From: Ignavibacteria bacterium
Lineage (GTDB): Bacteria > Bacteroidota > Ignavibacteria > Tepidaquicellales > Tepidaquicellaceae
Assembly: GCA_036262055.1 (NCBI GenBank)
Contig: DATAJP010000002.1
Span: forward strand, 888,177 to 952,176
DNA: 64,000 nucleotides
Direction: 5' to 3'
Position numbers and translations under genes: made by a program. Under the pieces are notes generated by a model that was not told the DNA's origin, did not search any database, and saw only the letters and a list, made by a program, of their open reading frames with translations. Position 1 is the stretch's first letter. Each line of letters starts with the position of its first letter. This document shows, piece after piece, positions 39,472-60,300 of this stretch.

Positions 39472-40233
39472 TTAATTAAATATTTTTTCTAACTCTTTTT
39501 CGGTCGGGTAATTAATTAATACAGCTCTTCTGGGGCCGTGAAATACAAACATGCTTCCTGCCGCGACCGCAGAGGCATGTCCTTCGTCAACAGCTTCCCT
39601 GAAATGCTCAAACGTTCCCGCTCCGCCGATTGCAATAACCGGAATGGTTACGTTATCGGCAATTTGTCTTATAAGATTCACGTCATAGCCCGTCATTGTT
39701 CCGTCTTTATCAATCGAGTTTATTAAAATTTCACCTGCTCCCGCCTGTTCCATTTTCTTAGCATGTTCAACAGGGTCTATTGAAGTTTTTTGCGTTCCGG
39801 ATTTTGTGAACATCTGATATTTTCCGAATAAATTTTTCTTCACGTCTATGGAAACTACCACGCTCTGGTTGCCTGAATATTCAGCAGCTTTATTCACAAG
39901 CTCCGGGTCATTCACGGAGTTTGTATTAATGATTATTTTTTCAGCTCCCGAGCCGAGAATTCTTTTTACTTCTTCAATTGACTTAATTCCACCGCCGACA
40001 GCAAAAGGCATAAATGCTTCTTTGCCAATTCTTTTTACAAGCTCAATATCTATCAGGCGGTTTTCCTTAGATGCAGTGATATCAAGAAACGCAAGTTCAT
40101 CAGCCTCAAGTTCATTAAAAATTTTTACTGCATTAATAGGGTCACCTATGTATGTAGGGTCTTTGAACTTAACCGTCTTAACTAATCCAAGATGCTTCAA
40201 CAATAAACACGGAATAACTCTGGGTCTGAACAT
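39472..40233 (-). CDS. HisF-like subunit of the sugar amidotransferase system (WbuZ type)
   Basis: 253 residues, (beta/alpha)8 barrel with VGGGIKSIEEV, SIDVKKN and GGAGTFEHFREAV. In histidine-pathway HisF the N-terminal PCLDV supplies a catalytic Asp at 11; here it is PCLLL, so that Asp is Leu11. The second Asp (VSIDV) remains. This matches the glycan-associated HisF paralogues that channel ammonia to WbpG-type enzymes instead of making imidazole glycerol phosphate. It is encoded between the HisH-like gene and the rest of the cluster and overlaps the HisH-like gene by 1 base. Confidence 0.88.
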   Translation of the reverse strand: MFRPRVIPCLLLKHLGLVKTVKFKDPTYIGDPINAVKIFNELEADELAFLDITASKENRLIDIELVKRIGKEAFMPFAVGGGIKSIEEVKRILGSGAEKIIINTNSVNDPELVNKAAEYSGNQSVVVSIDVKKNLFGKYQMFTKSGTQKTSIDPVEHAKKMEQAGAGEILINSIDKDGTMTGYDVNLIRQIADNVTIPVIAIGGAGTFEHFREAVDEGHASAVAAGSMFVFHGPRRAVLINYPTEKELEKIFN

Positions 40234-40865
40234 TAATTTACTTTCTCAATAAAATTTTTAATAATGTTCAGCCCGATGCTGTGGCTTTTTTCGGGATGAA
40301 ACTGCGTTCCGTAAATGTTGCCTTTGTTCACTCCCGAGACAAACTCGTTTCCATATTCGGTTTTCAATAAAACATCACTTTCATTTTTACATTGTACAAA
40401 ATATGAGTGCACAAAATAAAAAGCAGGGTTCTCGTCTTTTTCAAGAATGTCCGTCATCAATACATTATCTTTTTTAGTTACATCAACAGTGTTCCAGCCG
40501 ATGTGAGGAACACGGTATTTGTGATGCGCATCGCCGGGGAATTCAAATCGTTTTGTTTCTGCATCAATCCATCCGAATCCTTCGGTATCACCCTCTTCGC
40601 TATGTTTTGTAAATAACTGCATGCCGAGACAAATGCCGAGTATCGGCGTTTTGTCCTCGAGAACTTTTTTATTAAGAATGTCATAGTACCCAAGCTCTTT
40701 TAATCTTTTCATCCCGCTTCCGAAATGTCCGACTCCAGGTAAAAGCAACTTATCGGCATTCAAAATGTCTTCTTTGCTTTCGGAAATTTTTGCAGAATAA
40801 TTTAAACGCTCTATTGCCTTAAGAACCGAGTGCAAATTCCCCATGCCGTAGTTTATTATTACCAT
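40233..40865 (-). CDS. HisH-like glutaminase subunit of the sugar amidotransferase system
   Basis: 210 residues, class I glutamine amidotransferase. The nucleophile is Cys79 in GICLGMQ, and the His/Glu pair lies in FHPEKSH near residue 192. It releases ammonia from glutamine for the HisF-like subunit and then the WbpG-like enzyme encoded 5 bases upstream. The three-gene order (WbpG, HisH, HisF) is the known arrangement for sugar acetamido/amidino modification in O-antigen loci. Confidence 0.9.
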   Translation of the reverse strand: MVIINYGMGNLHSVLKAIERLNYSAKISESKEDILNADKLLLPGVGHFGSGMKRLKELGYYDILNKKVLEDKTPILGICLGMQLFTKHSEEGDTEGFGWIDAETKRFEFPGDAHHKYRVPHIGWNTVDVTKKDNVLMTDILEKDENPAFYFVHSYFVQCKNESDVLLKTEYGNEFVSGVNKGNIYGTQFHPEKSHSIGLNIIKNFIEKVN

Positions 40866-40870
40866 ATTAT

Positions 40871-42001
40871 TTAATCCTTTCCTATATATTTCATGTAAAG
40901 CAGCTCTGGAAAAAGCCCCATATTGACAAGCATCCTGATTGGTTTTTTAAATGTCTGAAGCGTGCTGAAATATGTTTTGTAATCCTTAAAAGATTTAACG
41001 GGATAATTATAAATTTTTTCAAATTCATCTTTAGTTAAACCAAGCTTATCAATAGTATAATCAACAACGCGTTTATCATATTCTGTCGGGTTGTTTTTAA
41101 AATCCGCCATAGCTTCATCGCGCGTTAATAATCCTTCTCTTATCATTGCGGAATATTCGGTTTTTCTTTTGTCAATACCGAACTTTTGCGGGAGCAAAAA
41201 TGCATGATAAAAAATTGTGTAATATGTTTCATGATGATGAGCGCCGTAATCAATCCATCCGAGTTCTTCCGTAAGGAACGGTTTGACTTTCGGCTTCACG
41301 TAATCATAATAATTCAGAAAAGGAACGACTTTTACCCCTTTTACAAATGTATAATAAAGCAAATCCTTTGCGAGAAAATTAGGAAACGTTTTCATCTTAA
41401 CTTTACCGAACTGCTTCTGAACATTTTCTATGTATTTTCCGTCAATGCATGACCAGCTGAGAGGAGAAATACCTTCGGTCCTGAATGAATGACCGTTTAA
41501 TACATATTTAACTCCTTCATCGCCTGCTACTCTTATAAGCACGGACATTATAGCAACATCAGTCGGAACTTCAGCATCGGGTGTCGATGCTTTCAGAAAC
41601 GAAATCTGAATATTTTTAAACTCTTCCCAGTCAAGAACATGAGTATATAAATCAACATTAAGTTTTTTACAAGCATTTTTAATATTCTGAACCGCGATTT
41701 CAGAGTCCCAACCGTTATCAAGATGAACGGCAAGAGGTCTTAAACCTAATTTAACGGCATTATATAATGCAAAAGTACTGTCGGTACCTCCGCTTACGCC
41801 CATTATGCAATCATATTTTTTGCCTTTACCGGATTCTTTAACATCAGCAATTAATTTCTCGAAAGCCTTTTTACCTTCTTCATTCAAAGGGTAAAGCTCA
41901 TTTAACCTGTCATGCATTTTACAATATTGGCAAACACCATTTTCATCGAATATAATCTCTGAAACCGTTTCATCCATCATGCATCTTGAACAAATTCTCA
42001 T
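40871..42001 (-). CDS. wbpG: N-acetyl sugar amidotransferase (WbpG/PseA family)
   Basis: 376 residues. The zinc knuckle is complete (Cys4, Cys7, Cys24, Cys27: CSRC and CQYC), and the ATP-pyrophosphatase loop GVSGGTDST follows near residue 67. The enzyme uses ATP and ammonia from the HisH/HisF-like pair encoded directly downstream to amidate or amidinate a sugar such as a uronic acid N-acetyl derivative, or in the PseA branch a pseudaminic acid. A second, divergent copy is at 31651-32787. Confidence 0.9.
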   Translation of the reverse strand: MRICSRCMMDETVSEIIFDENGVCQYCKMHDRLNELYPLNEEGKKAFEKLIADVKESGKGKKYDCIMGVSGGTDSTFALYNAVKLGLRPLAVHLDNGWDSEIAVQNIKNACKKLNVDLYTHVLDWEEFKNIQISFLKASTPDAEVPTDVAIMSVLIRVAGDEGVKYVLNGHSFRTEGISPLSWSCIDGKYIENVQKQFGKVKMKTFPNFLAKDLLYYTFVKGVKVVPFLNYYDYVKPKVKPFLTEELGWIDYGAHHHETYYTIFYHAFLLPQKFGIDKRKTEYSAMIREGLLTRDEAMADFKNNPTEYDKRVVDYTIDKLGLTKDEFEKIYNYPVKSFKDYKTYFSTLQTFKKPIRMLVNMGLFPELLYMKYIGKD

Positions 42002-43949: not shown

Positions 43950-45115
43950 TTGTTAATAGTTTTATATAATTTTTCTGCAATTAAAGAGCTCCTACGTCTT
44001 TTTGCTTCTTCAAATGAATTAAAAACCAAATTTTTCTTCAGTTCGTTATTCCCTAATAATTTTTTTATACTTTCTGCAAGTAACTCAGCATCATCTTTTT
44101 CAACTACATATCCCCATCCTGATTCTTTTGCACTCACAGTATGAAAAGATTCAGGAGGTGAAAACACAAGTATCGGGGTTCCGGAGACAAGATAGTCAAG
44201 AGCCTTAGTTGCATAAACGGTTTTCACTTCAAGCGGTGAACAGTTCTTGAATGATAAAGGTAAAAATAAAATATCGGATTTCATCTGCATTTCAAATGCT
44301 TCTTTCATGTCAACCCAGTTATAAGTAATTCTTTCATCAAAAATTCCGTAACGTTTTAATGTTTCATTATCAAAACTGCACAAAATAGTAACTTTTATAT
44401 CCCCCCCTAAATAATCAAGAGACTTTATTAAAACTTTAATTGCATCAAGATTCATCCCGTTGCTAATGTTACCAGTATATAAAATTTTTGCAGAACCCGA
44501 AACAGTATAAGAATTTTTTAATTCAAATCCTTCAAGCTTATCATCGGAAATGCTATGAGGAAACAAATCCGTTTTTAAGCATCTGTTATATTTTTCATCA
44601 TAAAAATTTTTCTGTATGCCAGTCATGCAGAACACTTTATAAGAATTTGTTAAAATTTCTTTTTCGTATTCCGCGGCTAATTTTCCGTTAATAGATTCAG
44701 CCGTATAATTTTCCTGCCAGAGGTCGTGCATATATGCTATAAACGGAATATTTTCTTCCTTAGCAGCAAGAAAAGCGGCAACAAAAAAAACAGAGTTTGG
44801 GTAAACTCCCATTATATAATCCGCTTTTTTTTCCTTAGCTTTTTGCTTTATTTTATTTTTTATATAACCAATAAACTTATATGAATATTTTTCAAAAATT
44901 CTTTGAAAAATTTTTAAGTTGAATTTCACATAGGTGGTTTCGCAATTTAGTTTAAAGCTCTTATCTGATTTTGCTTCATATTGCCATCCGCCAATAGCAT
45001 AAACTTTACCTTTGTAATTATTTATCAGATTGCTCATAAGTATCGAAGAACCGACAATCAATGGAGGAAGAGTTCTGCAAACAACGAGAAGCTTTTTTGA
45101 ATCAGGTTTTTTCAA
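43946..45115 (-). CDS. GT-B glycosyltransferase (family 4-like)
   Basis: 389 residues. The N-terminus KKLLVVCRTLPPLIVGSSI and the middle AYMHDLWQENYTAES, KILYTGNIS, ITYNWVDMKEAFEMQMKSDILFLPLSF, and SGTPILVFSPPES follow the GT4 group acting on exopolysaccharides. It overlaps the oxidoreductase gene by 14 bases. Specificity unknown. Confidence 0.82.
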   Translation of the reverse strand: MKKPDSKKLLVVCRTLPPLIVGSSILMSNLINNYKGKVYAIGGWQYEAKSDKSFKLNCETTYVKFNLKIFQRIFEKYSYKFIGYIKNKIKQKAKEKKADYIMGVYPNSVFFVAAFLAAKEENIPFIAYMHDLWQENYTAESINGKLAAEYEKEILTNSYKVFCMTGIQKNFYDEKYNRCLKTDLFPHSISDDKLEGFELKNSYTVSGSAKILYTGNISNGMNLDAIKVLIKSLDYLGGDIKVTILCSFDNETLKRYGIFDERITYNWVDMKEAFEMQMKSDILFLPLSFKNCSPLEVKTVYATKALDYLVSGTPILVFSPPESFHTVSAKESGWGYVVEKDDAELLAESIKKLLGNNELKKNLVFNSFEEAKRRRSSLIAEKLYKTINN

Positions 45116-46181
45116 TTTCCTCCAACACGTTATAAGCCGAATCTACACAAGTTGTCAATTTTCCGCTGAATATAGTAAATATGTTAGGAGTATGCTTAAT
45201 CAACAAAGTCGGTCTTGCATCATCGAGCTCTTGTTCAGGAAGAACCACACGGGTAGTAATCCACGATTCCTTCCACTTCATATCTTTTATTATCGGAAAA
45301 AATCTTTGCGCCTGCTCCATTAGTTCAAATTCCACCAATCCGTCAAACGGGTCCCATCCTGTTCTGTTAGAGCCCTTATGATTTTGCAAAACAGAATAAG
45401 TCACGTGATATAAAATAAATTCCCCGTGAGATAATCCTTTTGGCATTAAAGAACAGAACGGTCCGTCCATTATTGTTACTCCGAAAGCATCCGGCGGCTT
45501 GCTCATTTGTAAAATCGGCATCACGCATAGTTCTGCCTGCGCAGGAATTTCTTTTCCGTCAATCATGCGGGACATTTCAGAAATTCCTGAATATGTTGCA
45601 TTAATAACAAAGTCACCCGTTAGTTTATAATTATTGTTAAGCTCAACAGTGACAGGACTTCCGAGAGTAATTCTTCGTGGATAAGCATTCCTGATTATAC
45701 GAATATTTTTATTTTCACGGATTCTATAAATAATATTTTGCCTCAATTTGAAATAATCGAAAATAGTTTCCGGAGTTATCCAGCACTCATCGACCAAATT
45801 CCGGTTCAGAATTTTTTTGTCCGGAAATCCTTTTTTCAAAGGAAGTTTTAGCGCTTTACAAAAATCAATAAATCCCTGCGTATCGGTATGCGAACCGTTC
45901 TTTGCTATAGCATAATATTTTTTAAAATCACCGACTATGCAATCGCCATACATATCCTTAAAAGATTCAAGACCTTTAATTGATTCTTTGCCAGTCTGCA
46001 AGCTTCTTGGATAATGATACCCCAGATGTATTCTGTTTTGATTAACCATTGAAGCTTCAAGAAGCACATCATAATTTTTTTCAACAACTGTAACCTTATG
46101 TCCCTTTTCTGCAAGAATAATTGCATTTGTTAAACCGAAAATCCCGCCGCCTATTATTATTATACTGTACTTATCCGCCAA
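45102..46181 (-). CDS. FAD-dependent oxidoreductase (DAO family)
   Basis: 359 residues. The dinucleotide fold starts YSIIIIGGGIFGLTNAIILAEKGHKVTVVEK (GGGIFG) and contains NQNRIHLGYHYPRS, as seen in D-amino-acid-oxidase-like enzymes linked to surface polysaccharide loci. It may oxidise an amino sugar or a linked amino acid. It overlaps the SDR gene by 11 bases and the glycosyltransferase gene by 14. Confidence 0.8.
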   Translation of the reverse strand: MADKYSIIIIGGGIFGLTNAIILAEKGHKVTVVEKNYDVLLEASMVNQNRIHLGYHYPRSLQTGKESIKGLESFKDMYGDCIVGDFKKYYAIAKNGSHTDTQGFIDFCKALKLPLKKGFPDKKILNRNLVDECWITPETIFDYFKLRQNIIYRIRENKNIRIIRNAYPRRITLGSPVTVELNNNYKLTGDFVINATYSGISEMSRMIDGKEIPAQAELCVMPILQMSKPPDAFGVTIMDGPFCSLMPKGLSHGEFILYHVTYSVLQNHKGSNRTGWDPFDGLVEFELMEQAQRFFPIIKDMKWKESWITTRVVLPEQELDDARPTLLIKHTPNIFTIFSGKLTTCVDSAYNVLEEIEKT

Positions 46182-46848
46182 AAAATTGTCCCCCGTTTAT
46201 ATGTAATATTTGCCCTGTAATATTTTTTTCCGAAACTAAAAATAAAATTGCATCTGCGCATTCTGTCGGGGTAATAAGTTTTTTTGTCAGACTCGCATCC
46301 ATATGTTTTTTTCTGAAATCGTCAGTCATTCGTTTATGAACGGGGCTTCCATCTATAAGACCCGGAGCAATTGCATTAACTCGTATATCCGGTGCAAGCT
46401 CGCGTGCAAGGCTTCGCGTTAATGAAATTAATCCTCCTTTAACAGTAGCATACGAAGGGTCATAGCTGCCTTTATAAGCGGCAATTGAAGAAACAAGTAT
46501 GATGCATGAATTATTTTTTAATTTTTTTCTTAAATATTTTATTAAAAGAAATGGTCCTTTTAGATGTATGTTAATCATTTTATCAAAATGCTCTTCGGTA
46601 GATTCGGTTAAATTCATTTGCGGTTCATATCCCGAAGTTATTACTAATGCATCAAGTTCCGGAATTTTCATGTTTCCAATTTCTTTTACATCAATATTTT
46701 CAAAATCTATCTTAAAAATATTTTTTCCGGATTCTTTTGATGATGAACCGTAACAATTGTATCCATTCTTTTCAAAAAGATTTTTCACCGCTGTGCCAAG
46801 CGTCCCCGTAATTCCCGCAATGAAGATATTTTTATTTTTAGCTGGCAT
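46171..46848 (-). CDS. Short-chain dehydrogenase/reductase
   Basis: 225 residues. The cofactor site is GITGTLGTAV (TGxxxGxG-like), the active site Ser in LVSSIAAYKGS and Tyr-x3-Lys in YATVKGG, followed by RVNAIAPGLIDGSP. Probably an NAD(P)-dependent reductase of a sugar keto group or a side chain. 11-base overlaps on both sides imply obligatory co-expression. Confidence 0.87.
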   Translation of the reverse strand: MPAKNKNIFIAGITGTLGTAVKNLFEKNGYNCYGSSSKESGKNIFKIDFENIDVKEIGNMKIPELDALVITSGYEPQMNLTESTEEHFDKMINIHLKGPFLLIKYLRKKLKNNSCIILVSSIAAYKGSYDPSYATVKGGLISLTRSLARELAPDIRVNAIAPGLIDGSPVHKRMTDDFRKKHMDASLTKKLITPTECADAILFLVSEKNITGQILHINGGQFFGG

Positions 46849-48262
46849 TATTTATATATCTGAGTACATTCTTTGCAGCTTCGGACCCGAATGCTTTAAA
46901 ATTCTTTGATATGAAATTATCAATCGAGCTTATATAACTATTACTTGTTTTACCTTCAAAAAAATATGTGGTTAGTTCTTTTAAATCATTTGCTGTATAA
47001 CAGACAGGAAAGTTGTAATCTCTATATAGAGATTCATTCTGTCCGATAAAATTTTCATTTACATTAATAACAGCTACCGGAATTCTCTTAATTAAAGCAT
47101 CGTTCGAAATAGCCGAATTGTATACACACATTAAATCTGCAATTTTAAACGTATCTTCGTAACACATATTTTTATTATCAAAAACTTTTATTTCCGGATA
47201 ACTCTCTTTAATAAAATCATAATCTGAAATTTTTTCAGATGGATGAATTTTAATTATTCCTTTAATCTGTCCGTTTGAACTTTGAATTGCTTCGCCAAAT
47301 AGATTTACAAGTTTTATCCTTAAATCTTGCAGTGTCGGATTCGTAGCAAGTAATATGATTTTATCGTCGTTCTGAAACCCATATCTTTTTTTAATTTCCG
47401 AATCCTTGTGTTCATCAGTACTAAATTGAGTTGCCCCTGTAACGTAAATTTCTTCAGAAGTTACTCCTATAATCTCGTAAAGTTTTTTCTGTTTTTCACC
47501 CCATGAAAAAACCTTATCCGCTATCAGAGGACTATATGCAAATTTATTTGCAATAATACCATGTGACATAGTGTAAACAGGAATAAACATCTTTTTAGCA
47601 ACTGACGCAAGAACCGATAAAATATTCAACCTATCGTATTCAACTATAATATATGATGACTTCAAAATTGAAAGAATACTTTTAAATATAAGAACATAAA
47701 TTGTTTGGATTATGATTTCATTAATAATTCTTATCGCAAAATAATTCGGCAATTTATTGTTCTTTACAAAATCATTCACCTTAGTTTTTAACTCCGGCTT
47801 TATTTTAGAATATATTGAATTCCATTTTTTTAGGTTTGGATTATTTAAATTCTCCAAAGAAAAAACATATTTTGGTTTTACTTCCGTAAATTTACCATAG
47901 AACTTACCAAACTTTAAAAATGCTATGCAATTATCGACTTCCAATTCTTTAAGCAAAGGATAATTAATATTAAAAAAATGATTTCTATCCGAAGTAAAGG
48001 TCAACAATGGCAAATTTGTTGGTAAAGAACTGAAATCAAATACCTTGTTTTTATTTAAATGTGGTAATCCCCTTTTTTTAAGATAAAAATTCAGCAATCT
48101 GTCTTTTAATATTGCCGTATTCCTTTCATCGCCCCTGCCGAGGTAAAACTGAACATATAAGAAATTTGCAATCAAACTACCGACAGGAATCGAATCGAAT
48201 TTTATTTCATTTAAATCCCGCTCAAACTTTATGAGCTTATCTTCATTAACAATGTGAGCCAT
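46838..48262 (-). CDS. GT-B-like surface-carbohydrate transferase
   Basis: 474 residues. The C-terminal half has YTMSHGIIANKFAYSPLIADKVFSWG-type elements, ILLATNPTLQD, IKIHPSE and the end region with IPVAVINVN. This pattern is seen in capsule, polysialyltransferase-like and CDP-glycerol-type enzymes (UDP-GlcNAc-epimerase-like fold). It resembles the gene at 60290-61471 in general plan. The donor could be a CMP-nonulosonate, but this is inference. Confidence 0.6.
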   Translation of the reverse strand: MAHIVNEDKLIKFERDLNEIKFDSIPVGSLIANFLYVQFYLGRGDERNTAILKDRLLNFYLKKRGLPHLNKNKVFDFSSLPTNLPLLTFTSDRNHFFNINYPLLKELEVDNCIAFLKFGKFYGKFTEVKPKYVFSLENLNNPNLKKWNSIYSKIKPELKTKVNDFVKNNKLPNYFAIRIINEIIIQTIYVLIFKSILSILKSSYIIVEYDRLNILSVLASVAKKMFIPVYTMSHGIIANKFAYSPLIADKVFSWGEKQKKLYEIIGVTSEEIYVTGATQFSTDEHKDSEIKKRYGFQNDDKIILLATNPTLQDLRIKLVNLFGEAIQSSNGQIKGIIKIHPSEKISDYDFIKESYPEIKVFDNKNMCYEDTFKIADLMCVYNSAISNDALIKRIPVAVINVNENFIGQNESLYRDYNFPVCYTANDLKELTTYFFEGKTSNSYISSIDNFISKNFKAFGSEAAKNVLRYINNAS

Positions 48263-48266
48263 AACA

Positions 48267-48977
48267 TCAGTTAACAGATCTTATTATGCAGAACGCTTCT
48301 GCATATTTTTTCCCGCATGAAACTCCCCATCTTTTTGCAAGAACTTCAAGCGCCTCGGGCGAACGCGGATGCGGATATTTTCTTTTCTCAAACTCGTATG
48401 ATTCCATTGCTTTTATCTTTGCCTTCAGGTCATCCTTTGAAATTTCAATAAATAAGTTTGGAACAAAATTGAAAGGCTCTGATGAAGCACGCCATTCTGT
48501 TCCTGAAGGAGTTTCAAAGCAAATTATCGTCTTTACATTTTCGGATTCCATCGGTCGCGTTGCCGTAATCACAGCTTCAAAAGTTCTTCTGTGGTCGATG
48601 TTCAAATCTCCGCCATGATGAGTGAAGATAACATCGGGATTAAACTTCTGTTTTTCGTTTTCTATGATTTTTATAATGTCGAGCAAATCCACTGAGTCAA
48701 ATCTGTTATCCGGTAAATCATATACGGATAAATTCTGATATCCGATTGCCTTCTGTGCAGACTTAATATTTTTCTTATGAATGGCTAACTCATCTTTCCA
48801 GTCTTCAGCACTTCGCTTATCCGAACGTGAAGTGATGCCTTCGCCAAGAATTAAAACTTTCGTTTTAACCTTATATTGTTTTATTAATCTGTGCATTGTT
48901 CCGCCCAATCCCAGAATTTCATCATCGGGATGAGCAACAACAATCATTATTTTTTTATTTTTTAGATATTCTAACAT
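48267..48977 (-). CDS. PIG-L family N-deacetylase
   Basis: 236 residues. VVAHPDDEILGLGG carries the zinc-binding AHPDDE motif and FTHHGGDLNIDHR the second metal site. The family removes acetyl groups from N-acetyl amino sugars. It overlaps the formyltransferase-like gene by 23 bases, which suggests a deacetylate-then-reformylate pair. Confidence 0.9.
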   Translation of the reverse strand: MLEYLKNKKIMIVVAHPDDEILGLGGTMHRLIKQYKVKTKVLILGEGITSRSDKRSAEDWKDELAIHKKNIKSAQKAIGYQNLSVYDLPDNRFDSVDLLDIIKIIENEKQKFNPDVIFTHHGGDLNIDHRRTFEAVITATRPMESENVKTIICFETPSGTEWRASSEPFNFVPNLFIEISKDDLKAKIKAMESYEFEKRKYPHPRSPEALEVLAKRWGVSCGKKYAEAFCIIRSVN

Positions 48978-49629
48978 CTGCTGTTATTGTTCCGTCGGCT
49001 TTTAAGCTCGCACGTGAAAACTCAAATTTTAAATGTTCAGTTTCAATATAAGCACTCGGATAATGCTCCGCATCAAGCATCCTTATGTAATCATAAACTT
49101 TATTTATAGCATCAAGATTTTTTATATCACTCTCTTCGGGTTTTCTTCTTTTAAATGTTACTGCTTCACCTTCCTGAGGAACAGGTGTTAATTTTTTGTC
49201 AATTATTTCCAGAATCATTTCTTTTATAAGCTCGTTTGCGCGGATAAAAATTTCCTCGGCAGTCCCGAGAAGCTCCAAATCTTTCTTTAAATAAATTCCG
49301 CCTTCATCGATTCCTTTCACAATCTGAAATGCGCTTAGCTTTGTTTTATAAATACCGCGTGTGATAAGATTCTGAAGCGGGCTTCCTCCTCTTCCGAACG
49401 GCAAATCCGTTATGTGAAACGCAATGCATTCGAAGTTGTCATAAATGTCTGCTTTTAAAATATGCGACCAGTGCGGAATAAAAATTTTTTCCGGCTTAAT
49501 TTCATTAAGCTTTTGTAAATTCAGGTCTTCTTTTTTATTAATCAAAAACCATTTAGCTTTGGTTTTGGAATTAAAAAAATCCGTTAAACCTTCATTCCAT
49601 TTTTTTTCCGATGCAATTACGTAGTTCAT
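48955..49629 (-). CDS. Formyltransferase-like protein (sugar N-formyltransferase family)
   Basis: 224 residues. The core shows IKPEKIFIPHWSHIL, CIAFHITDLPFGRGGSPLQN and IVKGIDEGGIYLKK, matching the formyl-transferase fold. His and Asp of the catalytic triad are visible, whereas the usual Asn before His is Ala. The HITDLPFGRGGSP variant is typical of enzymes from nonulosonic acid loci. It lies between pseI (4-base gap) and the PIG-L deacetylase (23-base overlap). Confidence 0.75.
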   Translation of the reverse strand: MNYVIASEKKWNEGLTDFFNSKTKAKWFLINKKEDLNLQKLNEIKPEKIFIPHWSHILKADIYDNFECIAFHITDLPFGRGGSPLQNLITRGIYKTKLSAFQIVKGIDEGGIYLKKDLELLGTAEEIFIRANELIKEMILEIIDKKLTPVPQEGEAVTFKRRKPEESDIKNLDAINKVYDYIRMLDAEHYPSAYIETEHLKFEFSRASLKADGTITADVRISKK

Positions 49630-49633
49630 ATTG

Positions 49634-50680
49634 TTATGTTAAAATATCAAACGTTAAAGGTGTTCCGGATTTAATATCTTTATTAGCTTTCTTGCCGAGA
49701 ATTATTTCGAAATACGCCGGCTGCAAGCCAAGTCCGGGTCTTATTACTCTGATATTATCTTTTGTAAATTCTTCACCTGCTTTAATATCTTTTACTGCAT
49801 AAATCGAGCGCTTATATAATAAGCTTTTTTCTTCAGCTTTTTGTATATCAAACTGCACTTTCCCCAAAGCAAGAAATGCTCTTTCGGATTCAATGACCAG
49901 TGATTTCATTTCATCCGGCTCCATTGAAAATGCGCTGTCAACTCCGCCGTCAGCACGTTTTAAAGTAAAATGCTTTTCAATTACTCTCGCACCAAGTGAA
50001 ACGGAAGCAATCGCCGCACCAATGCCCATCGTATGGTCTGATAAACCGATTATGCAGTCAAAAATTTCCCGCATGGCTGTTATGGTATTCAAATTCGTAT
50101 TTTCAGGTGTTGAAGGATAGGTACTTGTGCATTTTAGTAAAACAAGCTTATCGCATCCGTTTGTTTTCAGTGTCTGGACTGCAGTATAAATTTCTGCAAG
50201 TGAAGCAGCGCCTGTTGACATTATGACCGGCTTGCCGGTCGAAGCAACTTTTTTGAGTAAAGGCAAATCAGTGTTTTCAAATGAAGCAATCTTATAAAGA
50301 GGGACATTCAAGCTTTCAAGAAAATCGACTGATGATTCATCAAAAGGAGTGCTGAATGCAATCAATCCTTTTTCTTTTGCACGCTTGAAAATCGGCTCGT
50401 GCCATTCCCAGGGAGTATATGCCTCCTTATAAAGTTCATGAAGTTCCTTGCCATACCATAAAGAATTTTTATCAGTAATTGTATATGCACCGGGAATTGT
50501 CATCGTATCGGCAGTATATGTCTGAAGCTTTATTGCATCAACTCCTGTTTCCGCAGCAGCATCAACAATCGCAAAAGCCCTGTCAATAGACTGATTATGA
50601 TTACCTGACATCTCAGCAATAATAAACGGTTTGCTGTCAGAACTTATTTTTTTATTTTCTATTACTATTTCTTTATTCAA
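49634..50680 (-). CDS. pseI: Pseudaminic acid synthase (NeuB family)
   Basis: 348 residues. PFIIAEMSGNHNQSIDRA, GVDAIKLQTYTADT, STPFDESSVDFLE, KIASFE, CIIGLSDHTMG, RVIEKHFTL and ADGGVDSAFSMEPDE are conserved through the NeuB TIM barrel, with the SMEPDE variant typical of PseI. A C-terminal SAF (antifreeze-like) domain starts YKRSIYAVKDIKAGE (about 282). It condenses a 6-deoxy-diacetamido-altrose with phosphoenolpyruvate to give pseudaminic acid. Full family length. Confidence 0.92.
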   Translation of the reverse strand: MNKEIVIENKKISSDSKPFIIAEMSGNHNQSIDRAFAIVDAAAETGVDAIKLQTYTADTMTIPGAYTITDKNSLWYGKELHELYKEAYTPWEWHEPIFKRAKEKGLIAFSTPFDESSVDFLESLNVPLYKIASFENTDLPLLKKVASTGKPVIMSTGAASLAEIYTAVQTLKTNGCDKLVLLKCTSTYPSTPENTNLNTITAMREIFDCIIGLSDHTMGIGAAIASVSLGARVIEKHFTLKRADGGVDSAFSMEPDEMKSLVIESERAFLALGKVQFDIQKAEEKSLLYKRSIYAVKDIKAGEEFTKDNIRVIRPGLGLQPAYFEIILGKKANKDIKSGTPLTFDILT

Positions 50681-50701: not shown

Positions 50702-51163
50702 TTATATTTCAAAAATAAGTTTTATATATTTTCTGTGATTTATATCAACAGAACCAACTTCTTTAAAACCATAACCCCTAAAAGTTTTAAGCGAGGGCAA
50801 ATTATATTCAAGTATTAATGCTATCAATATTGCTTTTCCGGGTATGTCATTTTTAAGTTCGTTCATTGCAAGTTCGAGAATTTTTTTCCCATACCCCATA
50901 CCTCGCATTTTAACGTCAACAGAATAATCTATATGGTAATAACCGTCATCTTTTAACTCAAATCTAATCTGTCCTATGTGATTATCATTTTCTGAAACAA
51001 TATATAAAAAAGAATCATTATCATTTATTTTATTCTTGAACCATTTAACATGGTTTTCGTATTTAATTTTTTCCGGATTAATTGAATTTGCTCTTGTAAC
51101 GTCATCATTAGCCCATTCAAAATATAAATCCAAATCATTTATGTTTGCCTTGCGTATTTTCAA
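50702..51163 (-). CDS. GNAT N-acetyltransferase, probably in the PseH role
   Basis: 153 residues. The acetyl-CoA site is the YSVDVKMRGMGYGKKILELAM block (R/Q-x-x-G-x-G/A) and later YNLPSLKTFRGYGFKEVG. It has the size and start (IRKANINDLDLYFEWANDD) of acetyltransferases fused to or beside PseG, which acetylate the 4-amino group before hydrolysis. It overlaps pseG by 4 bases. The pathway position, not a diagnostic residue, supports the PseH role. Confidence 0.75.
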   Translation of the reverse strand: MKIRKANINDLDLYFEWANDDVTRANSINPEKIKYENHVKWFKNKINDNDSFLYIVSENDNHIGQIRFELKDDGYYHIDYSVDVKMRGMGYGKKILELAMNELKNDIPGKAILIALILEYNLPSLKTFRGYGFKEVGSVDINHRKYIKLIFEI

Positions 51164-52113
51164 TTTAAACTTTTAAATAAAGTTAAAAAATTTTCAGAAG
51201 GATTCAGACTTTTTATTTTTGTTTTCTTTTTTGATTTTAAATCTCTAAATGTTTCAGTAAACAAACTTTTGTCAACAACATCAAAATTATTTAATCCTAC
51301 TGCATTTTGTTTATTAACAAGATATTTATAAAATTCCCTCTGGTTATCGGCATAATATCCTGTTATAAGCTTCGTTCCTACGAGCAGCGATTCATAAGCA
51401 ACCGCGCTTGAAGGACAGATTGCAAACTCTGAGTTTTTAATTAAAGAAATAATTTCATTTGCGGATATATTCTCATAAATAGAAATATTCTTATTTGCTT
51501 GCGCAGTTTCACTTAATTCGTTTTTGTAATTATATGCTGAACCCACTACTACGTTTATACTATTTACTGAATTAACCTTTACAAGTTCTTTTAAAACTTT
51601 GTTTGTAAGATTTTTAAAATCAGAGCCGCCGAAACAAAGATAAACATTGCCATTTGAAACATTTGCCGATTCTTCGTAAGATGCTTCAATAAATTCTTTT
51701 CTAAGTAAACAATAGTCCGTTCCGATGCAAAGCTTTGTATAAGGTTCTATTGAATATGAATCCGGATTTATCCCCGGATTATGATTTATAACCACATCTG
51801 CATAAAAATGAATCTTCGGAATATCATCTATGCATACAAGCTTTTTGTTTTTCTGTTTAATTTTTTTCTGATAATCCGAATCAAATTTATATCCGTCAAG
51901 AACAATGGTATCGTAGCTATCAATAACTTCATTCAAAAAATGTTCTTCATCTTTGACCTTAATGAAACTGAAATCAGTCTTTACTTCATCAAGAGATGAA
52001 AATGTTATTTCAAAATTGTGTTGTAAGCTATCTGCCAATGACAAAGAACGAAAGATATGACCAAGACCTATTTTAGTATTACCGTCTGCCCTGAATAAAA
52101 TTCTTTTTTTCAG
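51160..52113 (-). CDS. pseG: UDP-sugar hydrolase PseG, probable CTG start
   Basis: Conserved coding extends upstream of the first Met (52044): reading on gives RILFRADGNTKIGLGHIFRSLSLADSLQ in pieces, which contains the family's N-terminal RAD...IG.GH motif with the catalytic His. The only start that includes it is CTG at 52113-52111, which overlaps the upstream gene's TGA as CTGA, the same geometry as a usual ATGA junction. An in-frame TAA lies three codons before. The protein would be 317 residues. PseG cleaves UDP from the 2,4-diacetamido-altrose intermediate. GT-B-like motifs VYLCFGGSDF and SAVAYESLLVGT are present. Confidence 0.85.
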   Translation of the reverse strand: MKKRILFRADGNTKIGLGHIFRSLSLADSLQHNFEITFSSLDEVKTDFSFIKVKDEEHFLNEVIDSYDTIVLDGYKFDSDYQKKIKQKNKKLVCIDDIPKIHFYADVVINHNPGINPDSYSIEPYTKLCIGTDYCLLRKEFIEASYEESANVSNGNVYLCFGGSDFKNLTNKVLKELVKVNSVNSINVVVGSAYNYKNELSETAQANKNISIYENISANEIISLIKNSEFAICPSSAVAYESLLVGTKLITGYYADNQREFYKYLVNKQNAVGLNNFDVVDKSLFTETFRDLKSKKKTKIKSLNPSENFLTLFKSLN

Positions 52114-53885
52114 TTTTCTTTATGAATTTTTGTTAACTTATTTAATGTATCAATAAGGTTTTTATCAGTTTGGTATTTTACAACACCGTTTTTATTAATA
52201 TTTGCAATTTCAGGATTGCTGTCAAGAAATTTATATAATTCAGGCAAACTGAATTCCAGCTTTTCATCTTTAAAATATTTTTCAATTATATTAAACATAT
52301 CAAGATCTTCGGGATAGTCAAGGGTCAGCCGGTAGTCTCTCACAAGCTCATCAGGCAAATCAATAAAATGAAGCTTGAAATACTCGGGATTGTTTCTGAA
52401 ATACCAGGTCATATACTCGGAATAGTTTGCGCTCTTAAAATATTTTTTTACTTCGCGCAAAGCAGCTACATTTATAATTTCCAGATTCGTTCCTATTGCT
52501 GCTTTATTTGCACTTGTATAATCTGCACCATATGCAAAATGTTCTTTTAATAAAATCTGGCAAATGTCATCCGAAACGTACTGCATGTCACCCGTTATGC
52601 GGACAACTACATCTGTCCCAAGCTTATCACATATATCTATGTATCTCTGAATTACATCATCAGGGTCACCTTTATGAAAAATTACATCTTCGCGGTATTT
52701 GTAATCACCGAGAATCGAATCCTCTTCCAATGTTGAAGTAGCAAGAACAACGTTATCGACATTTTTAAACTTCAGAGTATTTTTTATGCAAAGCTCTATT
52801 GATGATACATCTCCGATTTTTAAAATTGCTTTTTTAGGCAGACGGCTTGATTTCATTCTGCATGCAATAATCGCAGCAATTTTTGCTTTTTTATAGTCAC
52901 CGGATTTAACCGTCGTGTTTTTTCTAATATCTTTTGCAAGTATATGAAACGAGCTTTGAAGTTTTTTAATTTCATCTATGTTCAGTCCTTGCTGGTTAGA
53001 ACGTTTAAAATCAAATTCAAAATCACTAAGCAATCTTCCTTTTTCTTTATCGGTATTCACAACAGGCATTTGAATGCTTTTTCTCAGGTATTCTCTCTCG
53101 CTGTCATTAACAAAATCTGTTTCAAGCAAAGGATAATACTTATCAATCAAGTTAATGTAATCTTTATATTGTTCAATTGTTAAGCTTGAGTAAAAATCAT
53201 ATTCTGTTTTGAGAGAAGAATGCATAATGTGCTTTTCGACATAATCCGCCCCCGCAGCTACGGCAAATACCGGAAGCATTTTTGCATCTTCCCCCTTGCC
53301 GTCTATATGGTCCGCAAAACAAATTTTATTTTCAAAATTATTTTTCAAAGTTTTAATTTTTGAAAGCCCGCTGTCTTCAAGCTTCGTTGGATATGCCTGA
53401 AAACCAATTTGCAAAATTATTTCAGCCGGATTTAATTTATCCGAATATGTCTTAATGATTTTTTTAATCTCATCTAAGTCGTAAGCAGCAATATTTAAAA
53501 TCAACTTAACTTTTGATAAATCAATTTCAGATAGTTGATTCAGTAAATTAACATTGTAAAGAACTGATGCCTGAAGCTTTATGCCGTTTATATTTTTAAG
53601 ATTTTCTTTTAGTATTTCAACGCTATAATCATCAAAAATATCGAGCCATATGTCTTTTGTCTTTTTCGCTTCAGCAATTATTTTCTTCCACTGGCTGTTA
53701 TCAAAAAATAATTTTTCATAAACCGGATACCATTCATAATCAGACAAGGCAATCTTATCATATTTCAACGGCTGAAATTTCATTCCGAAACCATTCTGAA
53801 ATTCAGAAAATTCTTTTATAAGTGAAATCACATAATCAAAATTTCCACCATGCGTATTTGCTACTTCTAAAATATTATATACCAT
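52110..53885 (-). CDS. NeuB-like synthase fused to SpsF-type cytidylyltransferase
   Basis: 591 residues. Residues about 1-262 are a NeuB-type barrel (VANTHGG, MKFQPLKYDK, ADHIDG with His193, VEKHIMHS with His219). About 265-330 resembles the SAF domain (RKSIQMPVV, LAKDIRKNTTVKSGD). About 333-560 is an SpsF/CMP-sugar synthetase domain (AAIIACRMKSSRLPKKAI, VLATSTLEEDSIL, GDPDDVIQRY, VVRITGD, RLTLDYPEDLDM). The second domain can supply the CMP-transfer step (PseF/LegF role), for which no separate gene is seen. The first domain's sugar differs from or duplicates PseI. Bacillus SpsE and SpsF are separate proteins of the same two kinds next to SpsG, the PseG homologue. Confidence 0.85.
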   Translation of the reverse strand: MVYNILEVANTHGGNFDYVISLIKEFSEFQNGFGMKFQPLKYDKIALSDYEWYPVYEKLFFDNSQWKKIIAEAKKTKDIWLDIFDDYSVEILKENLKNINGIKLQASVLYNVNLLNQLSEIDLSKVKLILNIAAYDLDEIKKIIKTYSDKLNPAEIILQIGFQAYPTKLEDSGLSKIKTLKNNFENKICFADHIDGKGEDAKMLPVFAVAAGADYVEKHIMHSSLKTEYDFYSSLTIEQYKDYINLIDKYYPLLETDFVNDSEREYLRKSIQMPVVNTDKEKGRLLSDFEFDFKRSNQQGLNIDEIKKLQSSFHILAKDIRKNTTVKSGDYKKAKIAAIIACRMKSSRLPKKAILKIGDVSSIELCIKNTLKFKNVDNVVLATSTLEEDSILGDYKYREDVIFHKGDPDDVIQRYIDICDKLGTDVVVRITGDMQYVSDDICQILLKEHFAYGADYTSANKAAIGTNLEIINVAALREVKKYFKSANYSEYMTWYFRNNPEYFKLHFIDLPDELVRDYRLTLDYPEDLDMFNIIEKYFKDEKLEFSLPELYKFLDSNPEIANINKNGVVKYQTDKNLIDTLNKLTKIHKEN

Positions 53886-55063
53886 TACTTATTTATGAAC
53901 TTAATAATTTTTTCAATGACATAATTCTGTTGCTCATTCGTTAAAGTCGGATACATCGGGATACTCAGACATTTACTATAATAAGATTCTGCAATAGGGA
54001 AGTCTCCTTTCTTCCATCCAAAGTTTCTGTAATAGGGAAGTAAGTGAACAGGGGCATAATGCACCTGCGGATAAATATTATTTGATACAAGATAATCATA
54101 AAGCTCTTTTCTTTTTTCAACCTGTATGACATATAAATGAAATGCATGCCCGTCATCATGATACGGAGTTTTTATTTTATCTGCATATGGCTTGAATGCT
54201 TCATCATATCTTTTCACAAGTTCTTTTCTTTTCTTTAAGCTTTCAAGCGAGTGACTCAATTGGCTCATTCCGAGCACTGCCTGAATATCAGTTAAACGAT
54301 AATTATAACCAAGTTCCTGCATTTCATAGTACCATCCGCCATACTCTCCATTTTCTTTCATATCATCGCAGACAAAATCATTTTTTATTTTTGTAATCCC
54401 ATGAGTTCTTAACTGCTTTGCTTTTTTATCAATGTCCGGATTGTTAGTCGTAATCATTCCGCCTTCACCGCTTGTTATATGCTTAACAGGATGAAACGAG
54501 AACACAGATACATCTGCAAACTTTCCATTTCCTGCAAATTGTTTCTGACCCTTTGAATCAATAAAATATGCAGCAGGCGAATGACAGGCATCTTCAAGAA
54601 TCCATAAGTTATACTTATCGGTAATTTTCTTAAGTTCTTCAAGATTAACTGCAAGTCCCGCAAAATCAACAGGAACAACACCTTGATAATATCCTGCAGG
54701 TTTTGATTTTAATAAATCTTCAAGCTTGTTTAAATCAATCGTATAAGTTTTAAAATCAATATCAACAAAATCAACTTCACCTCCGCAGTATAAAATACAA
54801 TTTGCCGAAGCGCAGAAAGTAATTGGAGTTGTAATTACTTTTGTTCCCGGCTTAACTCCCAGCGCCATTGCGGCAACGTGAAGCCCTGCAGTGCCGTTTG
54901 CAACTGCTGTCGAATATTTGCATCCGACATATTCTGAAAATTTATTTTCAAATTCATCAATCTTAGGTCCCTGGGTTAAGAACTTTGATTTCAGAACTTC
55001 AACAACGTTCTGAATGTCGGCATCAATTATATTTTGTTTTCCGTAAGGAATTGCTTCCATCAT
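53885..55063 (-). CDS. pseC: UDP-4-amino-4,6-dideoxy-N-acetyl-altrosamine transaminase
   Basis: 392 residues, DegT/DnrJ/EryC1 aminotransferase family. The PLP-binding Lys194 is in FSFHPVKHITSGEGG; other conserved parts are VANGTAGLHVAA, TTPITFCASANC, and LEDACHSPAA. PseC adds an amino group from glutamate at C4 of the 4-keto sugar made by PseB. The gene overlaps pseB by 4 bases and the fusion gene by 1. Length is standard. Confidence 0.92.
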   Translation of the reverse strand: MMEAIPYGKQNIIDADIQNVVEVLKSKFLTQGPKIDEFENKFSEYVGCKYSTAVANGTAGLHVAAMALGVKPGTKVITTPITFCASANCILYCGGEVDFVDIDFKTYTIDLNKLEDLLKSKPAGYYQGVVPVDFAGLAVNLEELKKITDKYNLWILEDACHSPAAYFIDSKGQKQFAGNGKFADVSVFSFHPVKHITSGEGGMITTNNPDIDKKAKQLRTHGITKIKNDFVCDDMKENGEYGGWYYEMQELGYNYRLTDIQAVLGMSQLSHSLESLKKRKELVKRYDEAFKPYADKIKTPYHDDGHAFHLYVIQVEKRKELYDYLVSNNIYPQVHYAPVHLLPYYRNFGWKKGDFPIAESYYSKCLSIPMYPTLTNEQQNYVIEKIIKFINK

Positions 55064-56070
55064 TCAGGTATAAAATCAGGGTTAATGTTTTTCTTTATTT
55101 CATCGCGTATGTTATCAACGGTCATCCATTCATCATTTGTGTTTGAAGCATATCTGAAACCTTCACTAACTTTTTTTGCGTTAAATTTTTTCTTAAACTC
55201 ATCTACATTCCACACCGGAACCTGGGGAAGAATTACATAATATTTCCCGACATCATAAGTATTATATGAATCTGATTCGGTTATCATTTCTTCATGAATT
55301 TTCTCGCCGGGTCTGATGCCTGTATATTCGATTTTACATGATGGCGAAACTGCATTTGCTACATCAAGGATTTTATATGAAGGAATTTTCGGAACAAATA
55401 TTTCACCGCCCCATGCATTTTCAATTGCATACAAAACAAGCTTAATACCGTCATCAAGAGAAATATTAAATCTTGTCATCGAAGCATCTGTAATCGGAAG
55501 CGTTTTTGATTTTGATTTTTCCATAAAAAATGGAATTACCGACCCACGTGAGCCCATTACGTTGCCATAGCGCACGACAGAAAATTTTATGTCATGCCAT
55601 CCCCGTATGTTGTTTCCGGCAACAAAAAGTTTGTCTGAGCAAAGTTTTGTCGCCCCGTATAAATTAATTGGCGCAGCAGCTTTATCTGTTGAAAGCGCAA
55701 CTACATTTTTAACGCCTGTTTGAAGCGCCGCCTGAATTACATTCTCCGCTCCAAGAACATTCGTTTTAATAAATTCCATCGGGTTATACTCGGCTGCAGG
55801 AACCTGCTTGAGTGCTGCTGCATGAACAACGATATCGACATTTTCAAAAGCCATCTTTAACCTCTCAAGATCACGAACGTCTCCAAGAAAATATCTTATA
55901 TTTGCGTCATCAAATCCGGAAGACTTCATCTCAAACTGCTTTAACTCATCACGGCTAAACACTATAAGTTTTTTGGGCTTATGATTTTTGTAAACGTATT
56001 CCAAAAATTTTTTTCCGAAAGAGCCCGTGCCTCCCGTGATTAAAATAGTCTTATTGTCCAAGAATCCCAT
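55060..56070 (-). CDS. pseB: UDP-N-acetylglucosamine 4,6-dehydratase (inverting)
   Basis: 336 residues. NKTILITGGTGSFGKKF is the NAD-binding site, AALKQVPAAEYNPMEFIKTNVLGAENVI the family signature, and STDKAAAPINLYGATK the catalytic Lys region (FlaA1/PseB). It makes the 4-keto-6-deoxy-arabino sugar, the first step of pseudaminic acid synthesis. It is the first gene after a 93-base gap, the largest within the upstream half of the cluster, so a promoter may lie there. Confidence 0.93.
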   Translation of the reverse strand: MGFLDNKTILITGGTGSFGKKFLEYVYKNHKPKKLIVFSRDELKQFEMKSSGFDDANIRYFLGDVRDLERLKMAFENVDIVVHAAALKQVPAAEYNPMEFIKTNVLGAENVIQAALQTGVKNVVALSTDKAAAPINLYGATKLCSDKLFVAGNNIRGWHDIKFSVVRYGNVMGSRGSVIPFFMEKSKSKTLPITDASMTRFNISLDDGIKLVLYAIENAWGGEIFVPKIPSYKILDVANAVSPSCKIEYTGIRPGEKIHEEMITESDSYNTYDVGKYYVILPQVPVWNVDEFKKKFNAKKVSEGFRYASNTNDEWMTVDNIRDEIKKNINPDFIPE

Positions 56071-58716: not shown

Positions 58717-60300
58717 TTATTTTAGTAAAATTATTTTTTGTGTACTCCTTTTTTCAGTTTTGCCGTCATTAAACTTCAACATCATAAAATATATTCCCGA
58801 AGCAAAATTGTCCAAAGTATAATTAAAGCTGTGATATCCCGGCTGAACATTGTTTTCCTGAATTTTCTTTACCAACTTACCATCAAGCTGATAAAGCAGC
58901 AACTGATAATCATATATTTTATCAGTGTCAAAGTTAATTTTAAAAGTGCTATTGAAGGGATTCGGATAAGCATTATATACATAAAAATTTTCAGGCGGGT
59001 GTACTAATACTTCATTATTTAAATTATATATTTCAAAGTTACCGTTAAAATCTTTCTGAATTAATCTGTACTTATAAATTCCGGGATTCACATTTTTATC
59101 AATATAAGAATAATAATTTATGCCTGATGTGTTTTTTCCTGAAACAAATGAGAGCTTAGTCCAAATATTATTTTCCATTCTCTGTATTTCAAAACCATTA
59201 TTATTTATTTCTTCGGAAGTTTGCCATGATAATTCAACATTATTACGATTTACAGCAGATGTAAAAGAAATTAATTTTACAGGTAAAACTAAGTTTGAAT
59301 CAGTTAAACTGACTTTTGATAAATAAATTCGAGCATTACTACTATGTGATGAGTAATATGTTATAAAAAGCGAATCATTATGTTCCAACAAGCCGGGATA
59401 GCCCGTATCTCCTGAAGACTCGAGTGATATAATTTCGTTAACAGTAAAAGTGGTAGTATCCAATGATAATAGAGAAGTTCTTGTCGGGTTTTGCAATCTG
59501 CCTGCTACAATAATTTTACCGTTAGATAGTTTTATTATATTCGGTCCGCCGATTCTGTAACCGCAATCTGTAAAAGTCCAATTAGTAAATGGAGAAAACG
59601 CTCTGCCAATGAGAGCATTGGGTGAATCGCGCCGAATTACACATAAAGCATAATTATTATTAATAAATAAAATTTTTGCTTCGCTATCTTTATCAGCTGT
59701 AGAACTCAAAGTATCTTTAAGAACATTATAATTGTCATAATCAAAATCTGTAGTGCTGTATAATCTTGTGTATCTTAAAGATGAGTTAGTAAATAAAGGA
59801 TAACCTATTGAATATATTTTATTATTGTTATATGCAGGGAAATACATCCAGAAAAAATTTTCACCAACCTGTTTTCTCCTGCTCCAGTTAGTTCCCTCAG
59901 TTGTAAAATAAGTAATATTAGCTCCATTAATGGAATCAGCACCGACTGAATAAACTGCGTACGTTATAATTTGAAGGGTGTCTTCATTTATTTTAATGAA
60001 TTTTGTTCCTCTAATATCACCTGACAACGAATCCGAAATTAATATTTCAGAAATCCAATTGGTTCCGTTATTTGTTGAAGAAATGATTCTTACTTTGCCG
60101 TCAGGTATTCCTCCTCCCGGATGAATTGAACCCTCACGGAATGTAATAAAAATTTTATTTTTGAAATAAATTATGTCGGGGAAGGCATTGTGAATAGCAA
60201 GATTCCAAATCTGTGTTGATGGATATACAGGCACGCTGTAACTTTGAGATGAAATTCCAAAAAATATGAGAAAAAATAAATATGTTAATTTATTTTTCAT
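58717..60300 (-). CDS. Secreted sialidase-like propeller with T9SS sorting domain
   Basis: 527 residues: signal peptide (about 1-22), sialidase-like blades (IFITFREGSIH, ISSTNNGTNW, FTTEGTNW), a fibronectin-like linker and the C-terminal sorting domain (AYPNPFNSTFKINF, SGIYFMM, end of KIILLK). The FREGS..HPGG motif appears in sialidase-like proteins, but the full catalytic set is not recognised. Its stop is immediately next to the start of the 850-residue relative, and it overlaps the upstream transferase gene by 11 bases, so all are one unit with the glycan genes. Confidence 0.78.
   Translation of the reverse strand: MKNKLTYLFFLIFFGISSQSYSVPVYPSTQIWNLAIHNAFPDIIYFKNKIFITFREGSIHPGGGIPDGKVRIISSTNNGTNWISEILISDSLSGDIRGTKFIKINEDTLQIITYAVYSVGADSINGANITYFTTEGTNWSRRKQVGENFFWMYFPAYNNNKIYSIGYPLFTNSSLRYTRLYSTTDFDYDNYNVLKDTLSSTADKDSEAKILFINNNYALCVIRRDSPNALIGRAFSPFTNWTFTDCGYRIGGPNIIKLSNGKIIVAGRLQNPTRTSLLSLDTTTFTVNEIISLESSGDTGYPGLLEHNDSLFITYYSSHSSNARIYLSKVSLTDSNLVLPVKLISFTSAVNRNNVELSWQTSEEINNNGFEIQRMENNIWTKLSFVSGKNTSGINYYSYIDKNVNPGIYKYRLIQKDFNGNFEIYNLNNEVLVHPPENFYVYNAYPNPFNSTFKINFDTDKIYDYQLLLYQLDGKLVKKIQENNVQPGYHSFNYTLDNFASGIYFMMLKFNDGKTEKRSTQKIILLK

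Follow-up and report, generated by a model that had tools for sequence, protein, structure and literature searches.

The window, a 64,000-nucleotide stretch of an Ignavibacteria genome, carries a pseudaminic acid (Pse) operon that ends in two overlapping genes, one for a formyltransferase-type protein (FT1) and one for a predicted N-deacetylase of the PIG-L/LmbE type (PIG-L), and we consider with fair confidence that the two form an acyl-exchange cassette of the Pse pathway, which would replace acetyl by formyl at N5. In our best reading this exchange is a variant of the known pathway, and one more general than the single locus for which the sequence-only reading had suggested an acyl exchange. 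That suggestion now has the support of co-occurrence across genomes, of metal-site residues and of folds, and we infer from these the chemistry, the intermediate and the nitrogen concerned. Pseudaminic and legionaminic acids differ by species in their N-acyl groups, which shape surface recognition. The enzymes known to acylate N7 are PseH and also PseJ; a cassette of deacetylase and formyltransferase would supply a route to exchange the inherited acetyl group at N5, and would be a genomic marker for N5-formyl sugars. Passages of one published account list formyl among the N-acyl substituents at both C5 and C7 (PMC6388019). We found no deacetylase–formyltransferase pair described for a Pse or legionaminic acid (Leg) pathway in excerpts of the open-access PMC literature, subscription papers being outside the scope of the search.

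All genes of the operon lie on the (-) strand, in the order pseB, pseC, a NeuB-like/cytidylyltransferase fusion, pseG, a pseH-like gene, pseI, FT1 and PIG-L, the last two closing the uninterrupted run. The dehydratase pseB (55060..56070; TIGR03589, 516.8 bits against 407.75), the aminotransferase pseC (53885..55063; TIGR03588, 442.9 bits against 423.5) and the pseudaminic acid synthase pseI (49634..50680; TIGR03586, 489.8 bits against 340.25) are assigned by profile. The UDP-sugar hydrolase pseG (51160..52101) scores 183.5 bits over the full frame, against a cut-off of 153.55, and 147.6 bits as the listed ORF with its TTG start. A broken pseG was considered and rejected, as the listed TTG trims the N terminus but the upstream frame stays open and holds the N-terminal motif; no ATG, GTG or TTG start was found upstream of this motif, and the gene likely starts near 52101 at a rare non-ATG codon. 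The pseH-like gene (50702..51163) encodes a GNAT N-acetyltransferase that reaches 37.2 bits with TIGR03585, below the cut-off of 93.1; only its position and its GNAT family support the assignment, and it is predicted to acetylate N4, later N7. The fusion protein (52110..53885), whose cytidylyltransferase domain matches PF02348 with 65 bits, is a candidate CMP-Pse synthetase. It has a full-length homologue (52%) in a Brocadia locus (L033) and partial matches only in the other FT1 loci.

FT1 (48955..49629, 224 aa) and PIG-L (48267..48977, 236 aa), likewise on the (-) strand and both starting with ATG, share 23 bases (48955..48977) that are read in different frames. The sequence-only reading had described this overlap of a deacetylase and a formyltransferase gene beside pseI, and the ORF coordinates and profile matches confirm it. 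PIG-L scores 78.9 bits with Pfam PF02585, above the cut-off of 28.2, and carries HPDD at residues 16-19 together with His129. Profile, phmmer and fold all place FT1 with formyltransferases of the 1ZGH/PF21553 type: it scores 89.2 bits with PF21553 (Formyl_trans_C_2; cut-off 27) and 22 bits with PF00551, under the cut-off of 26.1, and its closest relative is 1ZGH from Clostridium thermocellum (phmmer 9.3e-69, 52% identity). That FT1 might be the tRNA formyltransferase (Fmt) of this genome was rejected, with TIGR00460 at 40.5 bits against 201.5 and FT1 found in sugar loci. Across 28 FT1/PIG-L pairs, window included, the overlap measures 23 bases in 20, 26 in L039 and L053, 56 in L034 and 4 in L066, the start codon having been picked in several relatives to match the conserved N terminus before the count; it is absent from L046, L047 and L062, and the gene order is reversed in L063. 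Because the exact length recurs in 20 of 28 pairs from different genomes, the overlap is not due to chance. The two genes are probably translationally coupled.

FT1 is seldom without PIG-L, but PIG-L is often found without FT1. A search of named genomes, limited to one per species and run with three aligned FT1 proteins as query, returned 23 FT1 loci, every one with Pse genes; 22 of them have PIG-L in view, and in 20 it directly adjoins FT1. In L046 and L047 pseI separates the two, and in L048 no PIG-L was found in the 459 bases between pseI and the contig end, where its sister L047 has one. The hosts include Flavobacteria, Chitinophagaceae, Cytophagaceae, Ignavibacteria and a Candidatus Brocadia, with Sediminibacterium sp. 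C3, Ulvibacter antarcticus and strains of Maribacter and Salinimicrobium among the carriers, and Pse-associated FT1 overall spans Bacteroidota, Ignavibacteria, a Planctomycete and a cyanobacterium. A plasmid of [Synechococcus] NIES-970 bears pseB-pseC-pseF-pseG-pseH-FT-LmbE-pseI with two other genes between, the pse names being our interpretation of the product names in the record. Among 395 genomes of the phylum, five score above the PF21553 cut-off, each with an adjacent PIG-L, and the PIG-L profile detects 36 at E<=1e-15, all five FT1 genomes included (hypergeometric 4.8e-6; 5.3e-5 without the genome of the window). A sixth candidate (G118/L064) was rejected: it lies below the PF21553 cut-off, PIG-L was not found there and the protein is a different kind of formyltransferase. 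The sequence-only reading had asked whether the pair recurs across genomes, and 22 of the 23 named loci, the NIES-970 plasmid and five out of five phylum genomes answer that it does.

Together, the window, the 23 named-genome loci, L060-L063 and L066 make up 29 FT1 loci. Pse genes are in view in 28 (the exception, L061, sits at a contig end) and PIG-L is out of view in one, counts that are not independent, since FT1 itself was used to find the loci and many of these are related. The FT1 sequence of the window shares 63% identity with a Chitinophagaceae FT1 and 55-56% with those of two genomes from its own family; this closer relation to the former points, on sequence identity, to movement of the cassette between lineages. 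The FT1 and PIG-L distances are correlated (r 0.68; 1 of 5000 permutations as high), which speaks for a shared history only. A phage collection yielded one match, of 31% identity, in an unannotated record of 4.4 kb.

We propose the following scheme, which starts from demonstrated features (the identity of the genes, their overlap and conservation, the invariant residues of the deacetylase and the folds) and from deacetylase and formyltransferase activities that are predicted. PseB and PseC would convert UDP-GlcNAc to a UDP-4-amino sugar, and PseH would acetylate the new 4-amino group (later N7). PIG-L would hydrolyse the 2-N-acetyl group inherited from GlcNAc, and FT1 would transfer formyl from 10-formyl-tetrahydrofolate to the freed 2-amine; PseG, PseI and CMP activation would then give 5-N-formyl-7-N-acetyl-Pse. 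We infer that the exchange most likely takes place at the UDP-sugar step, free altrose, Pse or CMP-Pse being possible substrates as well.

The N5 of Pse is the inherited acetamido group of UDP-GlcNAc, and N7 starts, in the established pathway, as a free amine that PseC introduces and PseH acylates. Only N5 therefore arrives acetylated and needs a deacetylase, which makes it the better target. A further argument comes from a second formyltransferase, FT2, which is found at the pseH position. Profiles built for PseH and FT2 were run on the 29 FT1 loci, training members included, and calls were made at a score of at least 100 bits for PseH and at least 200 bits for FT2. PseH is present in 15 loci (window included), FT2 in nine, both in one (L063) and neither in six, so that FT2 stands in place of PseH in eight of 29 loci with FT1 and PIG-L retained. 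The mutual exclusion of PseH and FT2 has a one-sided Fisher value of 0.0047, uncorrected for kinship. Where neither is called, L038, L045 and L046 carry another GNAT, and L031, L047 and L048 have no N7 acyltransferase in view, with only a weak 42-bit GNAT-like match further on in L047. Since FT1 and PIG-L persist whichever enzyme serves N7, N5 is again the better target; L063, which combines PseH, FT2 and FT1 and thus has three acyltransferases for two nitrogens, is an exception to this reading. Given that an exchange occurs, we think it quite likely that the pair acts on the nitrogen that becomes N5.

FT1 could instead formylate the PseC-made amine at N7, as PseJ does, with PIG-L acting elsewhere, for example to give a free amine at N5 or to correct acetylation by PseH, but we regard this as unlikely. 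PseJ of Anoxybacillus kamchatkensis (6CI2-6CI5), a member of a Pse cluster in which it replaces PseH and makes a 7-formamido product from the free amine, has a formyltransferase fold like that of FT1 (Z 16.4, rmsd 3.5, 174 aligned). A wrongly acetylated N7 could, with PseH present, need removal of the acetyl group, and the only structurally specified formylated Pse that we met in the literature is the 7-formamido form known from Pseudoalteromonas distincta, as given in passages of PMC3210612. However, N7 is already served in the eight of 29 loci where FT2 replaces PseH and FT1 and PIG-L are kept, and acetylating N7 only to strip it again would be wasteful. FT1, unlike PseJ, accompanies a PseH or an FT2 and is coupled with a deacetylase: it adjoins PIG-L and does not occupy the pseH slot, which holds a PseH-like GNAT in the window and is filled elsewhere by FT2, not FT1.

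It is also rather improbable that the true substrate of the pair is a different amino sugar, and that the two genes share the Pse operon only because this sugar and Pse are parts of one glycan. Genes for a formyltransferase and a PIG-L protein do occur adjacent or near to each other outside recognisable nonulosonic acid (NulO) clusters, in L084, L085, L086 and a Ruegeria plasmid (there beside a sugar transferase), and more sugar genes follow downstream in the window. Against this, Pse genes accompany FT1 in all but one of the 29 loci, across lineages, while the flanking sugar genes change, and in several loci, for example L032, the pair sits between pseG/pseH and pseI.

The assignment of an acetyl-to-formyl exchange at N5 also depends on what the two proteins are. 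In its AlphaFold model (pLDDT 94.5) FT1 has a formyltransferase fold, which overlays best with 1zgh (Z 31.7, rmsd 1.2, 223 aligned) and second with HypX (Z 20.5, rmsd 2.6, 218 aligned); Fmt gives Z 19.3 and ArnA Z 18.7 (rmsd 3.5, 222 aligned), the sugar formyltransferases overall lying at Z 16-19. The PIG-L model (89.0), confident like that of FT1, resembles GlcNAc-type deacetylases in fold, with matches to BC1534, diacetylchitobiose deacetylases, TT1542, BshB and MshB at about 12-22% identity. The metal site of PIG-L, HPDD (16-19) plus His129, is invariant in 28 of 28 sequences, and His129 is read here as the second metal His under the HXDD + His definition of the PIG-L/LmbE motif given in passages of PMC4101496. 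In FT1, His72, Asn87 and Asp108 are invariant in 29 of 29. From phmmer alignments we take His72 and Asp108 to be the catalytic His and Asp of formyltransferases. The Asn two residues before this His, which has a role in formyltransferases and is present in the Bacillus Fmt row of the alignment, is missing from FT1, with Ala70 in the window and A, V, I, L or C in all 29 loci; FT2 likewise lacks it in the alignment. The mechanism of FT1 may for this reason differ, and Asn87 may stand in for the lost residue. That FT1 is not a formyltransferase, and through some other transfer or a hydrolysis leaves a different acyl group or a free amine at N5, is very improbable, for although the Asn is replaced throughout, the PF00551 match is below its cut-off and the match to HypX, whose chemistry goes beyond N-formyl transfer, shows that the fold is not limited to this reaction, His72 and Asp108 are invariant, the fold match to folate-dependent formyltransferases is full-length and FT2 is also without this Asn.

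Individual features of the pair are found in several known systems. 1ZGH is of the same subfamily as FT1 and is annotated 'methionyl-tRNA formyltransferase'; we know of no test of its function. The sugar N-formyltransferases ArnA, VioF, WbkC and WlaRD have their fold in common with FT1 (Z 17-19) and act, without a deacetylation step, on amines installed by aminotransferases. BshB, MshB and diacetylchitobiose deacetylase, which belong to the LmbE/PIG-L superfamily and act on 2-N-acetyl groups of the GlcNAc type, share the fold and the HXDD+H metal site with PIG-L of the window, which differs in its sequence (about 12-22% identical) and in sitting in Pse clusters. MshB/MshD offers an analogue of deacetylation followed by reacylation. 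Passages of a study of Halorubrum sp. PV6 describe an N5-formyl nonulosonic acid like the product proposed here, namely 5-N-formyl-legionaminic acid, inferred by mass spectrometry on the S-layer glycoprotein, and a formyltransferase gene within the leg cluster (PMC6137143). This system differs in that the sugar is legionaminic and not pseudaminic acid and the formyltransferase is longer (953 bp amplified), and the same passages name no deacetylase in the pathway (PMC6137143).

We tentatively raise a wider idea, plausible but short of an even chance, in which PIG-L serves as the fixed hub of a module that re-acylates N5 of nonulosonic acids in general: it removes the inherited acetyl group, and a swappable partner adds another one. 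The partner would be FT1 here and a GNAT, hexapeptide acyltransferase, carbamoyltransferase or ATP-grasp ligase elsewhere, and the module would serve both pseudaminic and legionaminic acid synthesis, in bacteria as well as in haloarchaea. If true, this would explain the origin of N5-modified sialic-acid-like sugars and make N5 decoration predictable from genomes. From the 36 PIG-L genomes we took the genome of the window, the four others with FT1 and 20 more for inspection, leaving out 11 weaker ones; L073 was dropped, with no PIG-L in the ORF comparison. Of the 11 genomes of the phylum that score highest for PIG-L (at least 270 bits), five have FT1. The remaining six have other genes near PIG-L: L067 one for a GNAT-domain protein, L068 and L070 carbamoyltransferase genes, L071 a hexapeptide acyltransferase gene, L072 a phosphoesterase gene with an ATP-grasp gene further along, and L069 an amidohydrolase gene, beside which no acyltransferase was recognised. 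These neighbourhoods fit a module of hub and partner. Carbamoyltransferases usually act on oxygen, so the PIG-L neighbours need not all share the same nitrogen.

Other pairings of the two families were also seen. A second cluster in L033 comprises LegB, NeuB/LegI-like, NeuC-like, hexapeptide and cytidylyltransferase genes, and an ArnA-like formyltransferase overlaps PIG-L (34% identical) within it; Pse and Leg-type clusters thus lie side by side in this Candidatus Brocadia (L033:1662-20145), each with its own, non-orthologous formyltransferase/PIG-L pair. PIG-L matches on plasmids came to 149 and 144 records, of which NIES-970 and seven others were inspected. Two formyltransferase genes share a Halorussus plasmid with neuB, PIG-L and neuC, and a Mariluticola plasmid has PIG-L in a Pse cluster together with a gene bearing a weak formyltransferase domain (24.8 bits, cut-off 26.1). 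On an Ensifer plasmid the neighbours of PIG-L are legI-like and ATP-grasp genes, and a formyltransferase was not recognised; the stretches inspected on plasmids of Priestia, Sinorhizobium meliloti and Palleronia hold PIG-L and no annotated formyltransferase, so PIG-L does not imply a formyltransferase. The L033 formyltransferase matched 160 plasmid records, and in the one inspected through that match, from Sinorhizobium terangae, the stretch around the gene gave no PIG-L match.

The surroundings of the operon hold further genes that may concern the same glycan. Directly after PIG-L, 46838-48262 encodes a 474-residue protein that has no Pfam or NCBIfam match and is a candidate glycosyltransferase for the sugar. 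Next to it, an FAD-dependent oxidoreductase and an SDR overlap (45102-46848), are not conserved with FT1 and PIG-L, and could possibly carry out a redox modification of a sugar. They were compared with the 8-epimerase pair EpaA/EpaB, EpaA being a cytidylyltransferase/aldo-keto reductase fusion according to passages of PMC12053666; this assignment was rejected, as only the SDR bears a resemblance and the genes are not conserved with FT1/PIG-L. Further downstream on the (-) strand, an amidation module of HisF2/WbuZ, HisH and the N-acetyl-sugar amidotransferase WbuX (39472..42001) is a possible further modifier. L040 and L052 have the same trio within their Pse loci and L063 has it close to its own, and together with FT1 the module could give rise to acetamidino or even formamidino groups. 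The other end of the operon adjoins genes for two proteins that carry C-terminal sorting domains of the Por secretion type (56164-60300); one of these proteins contains a BNR_2 repeat domain and is possibly sialidase-like. Finally, some 5 kb past the right end of the window lies a further NeuB/PseI-like synthase (G000:C2:957096-958067, 233.5 bits), so that synthesis of a second nonulosonic acid may be encoded in this genome.
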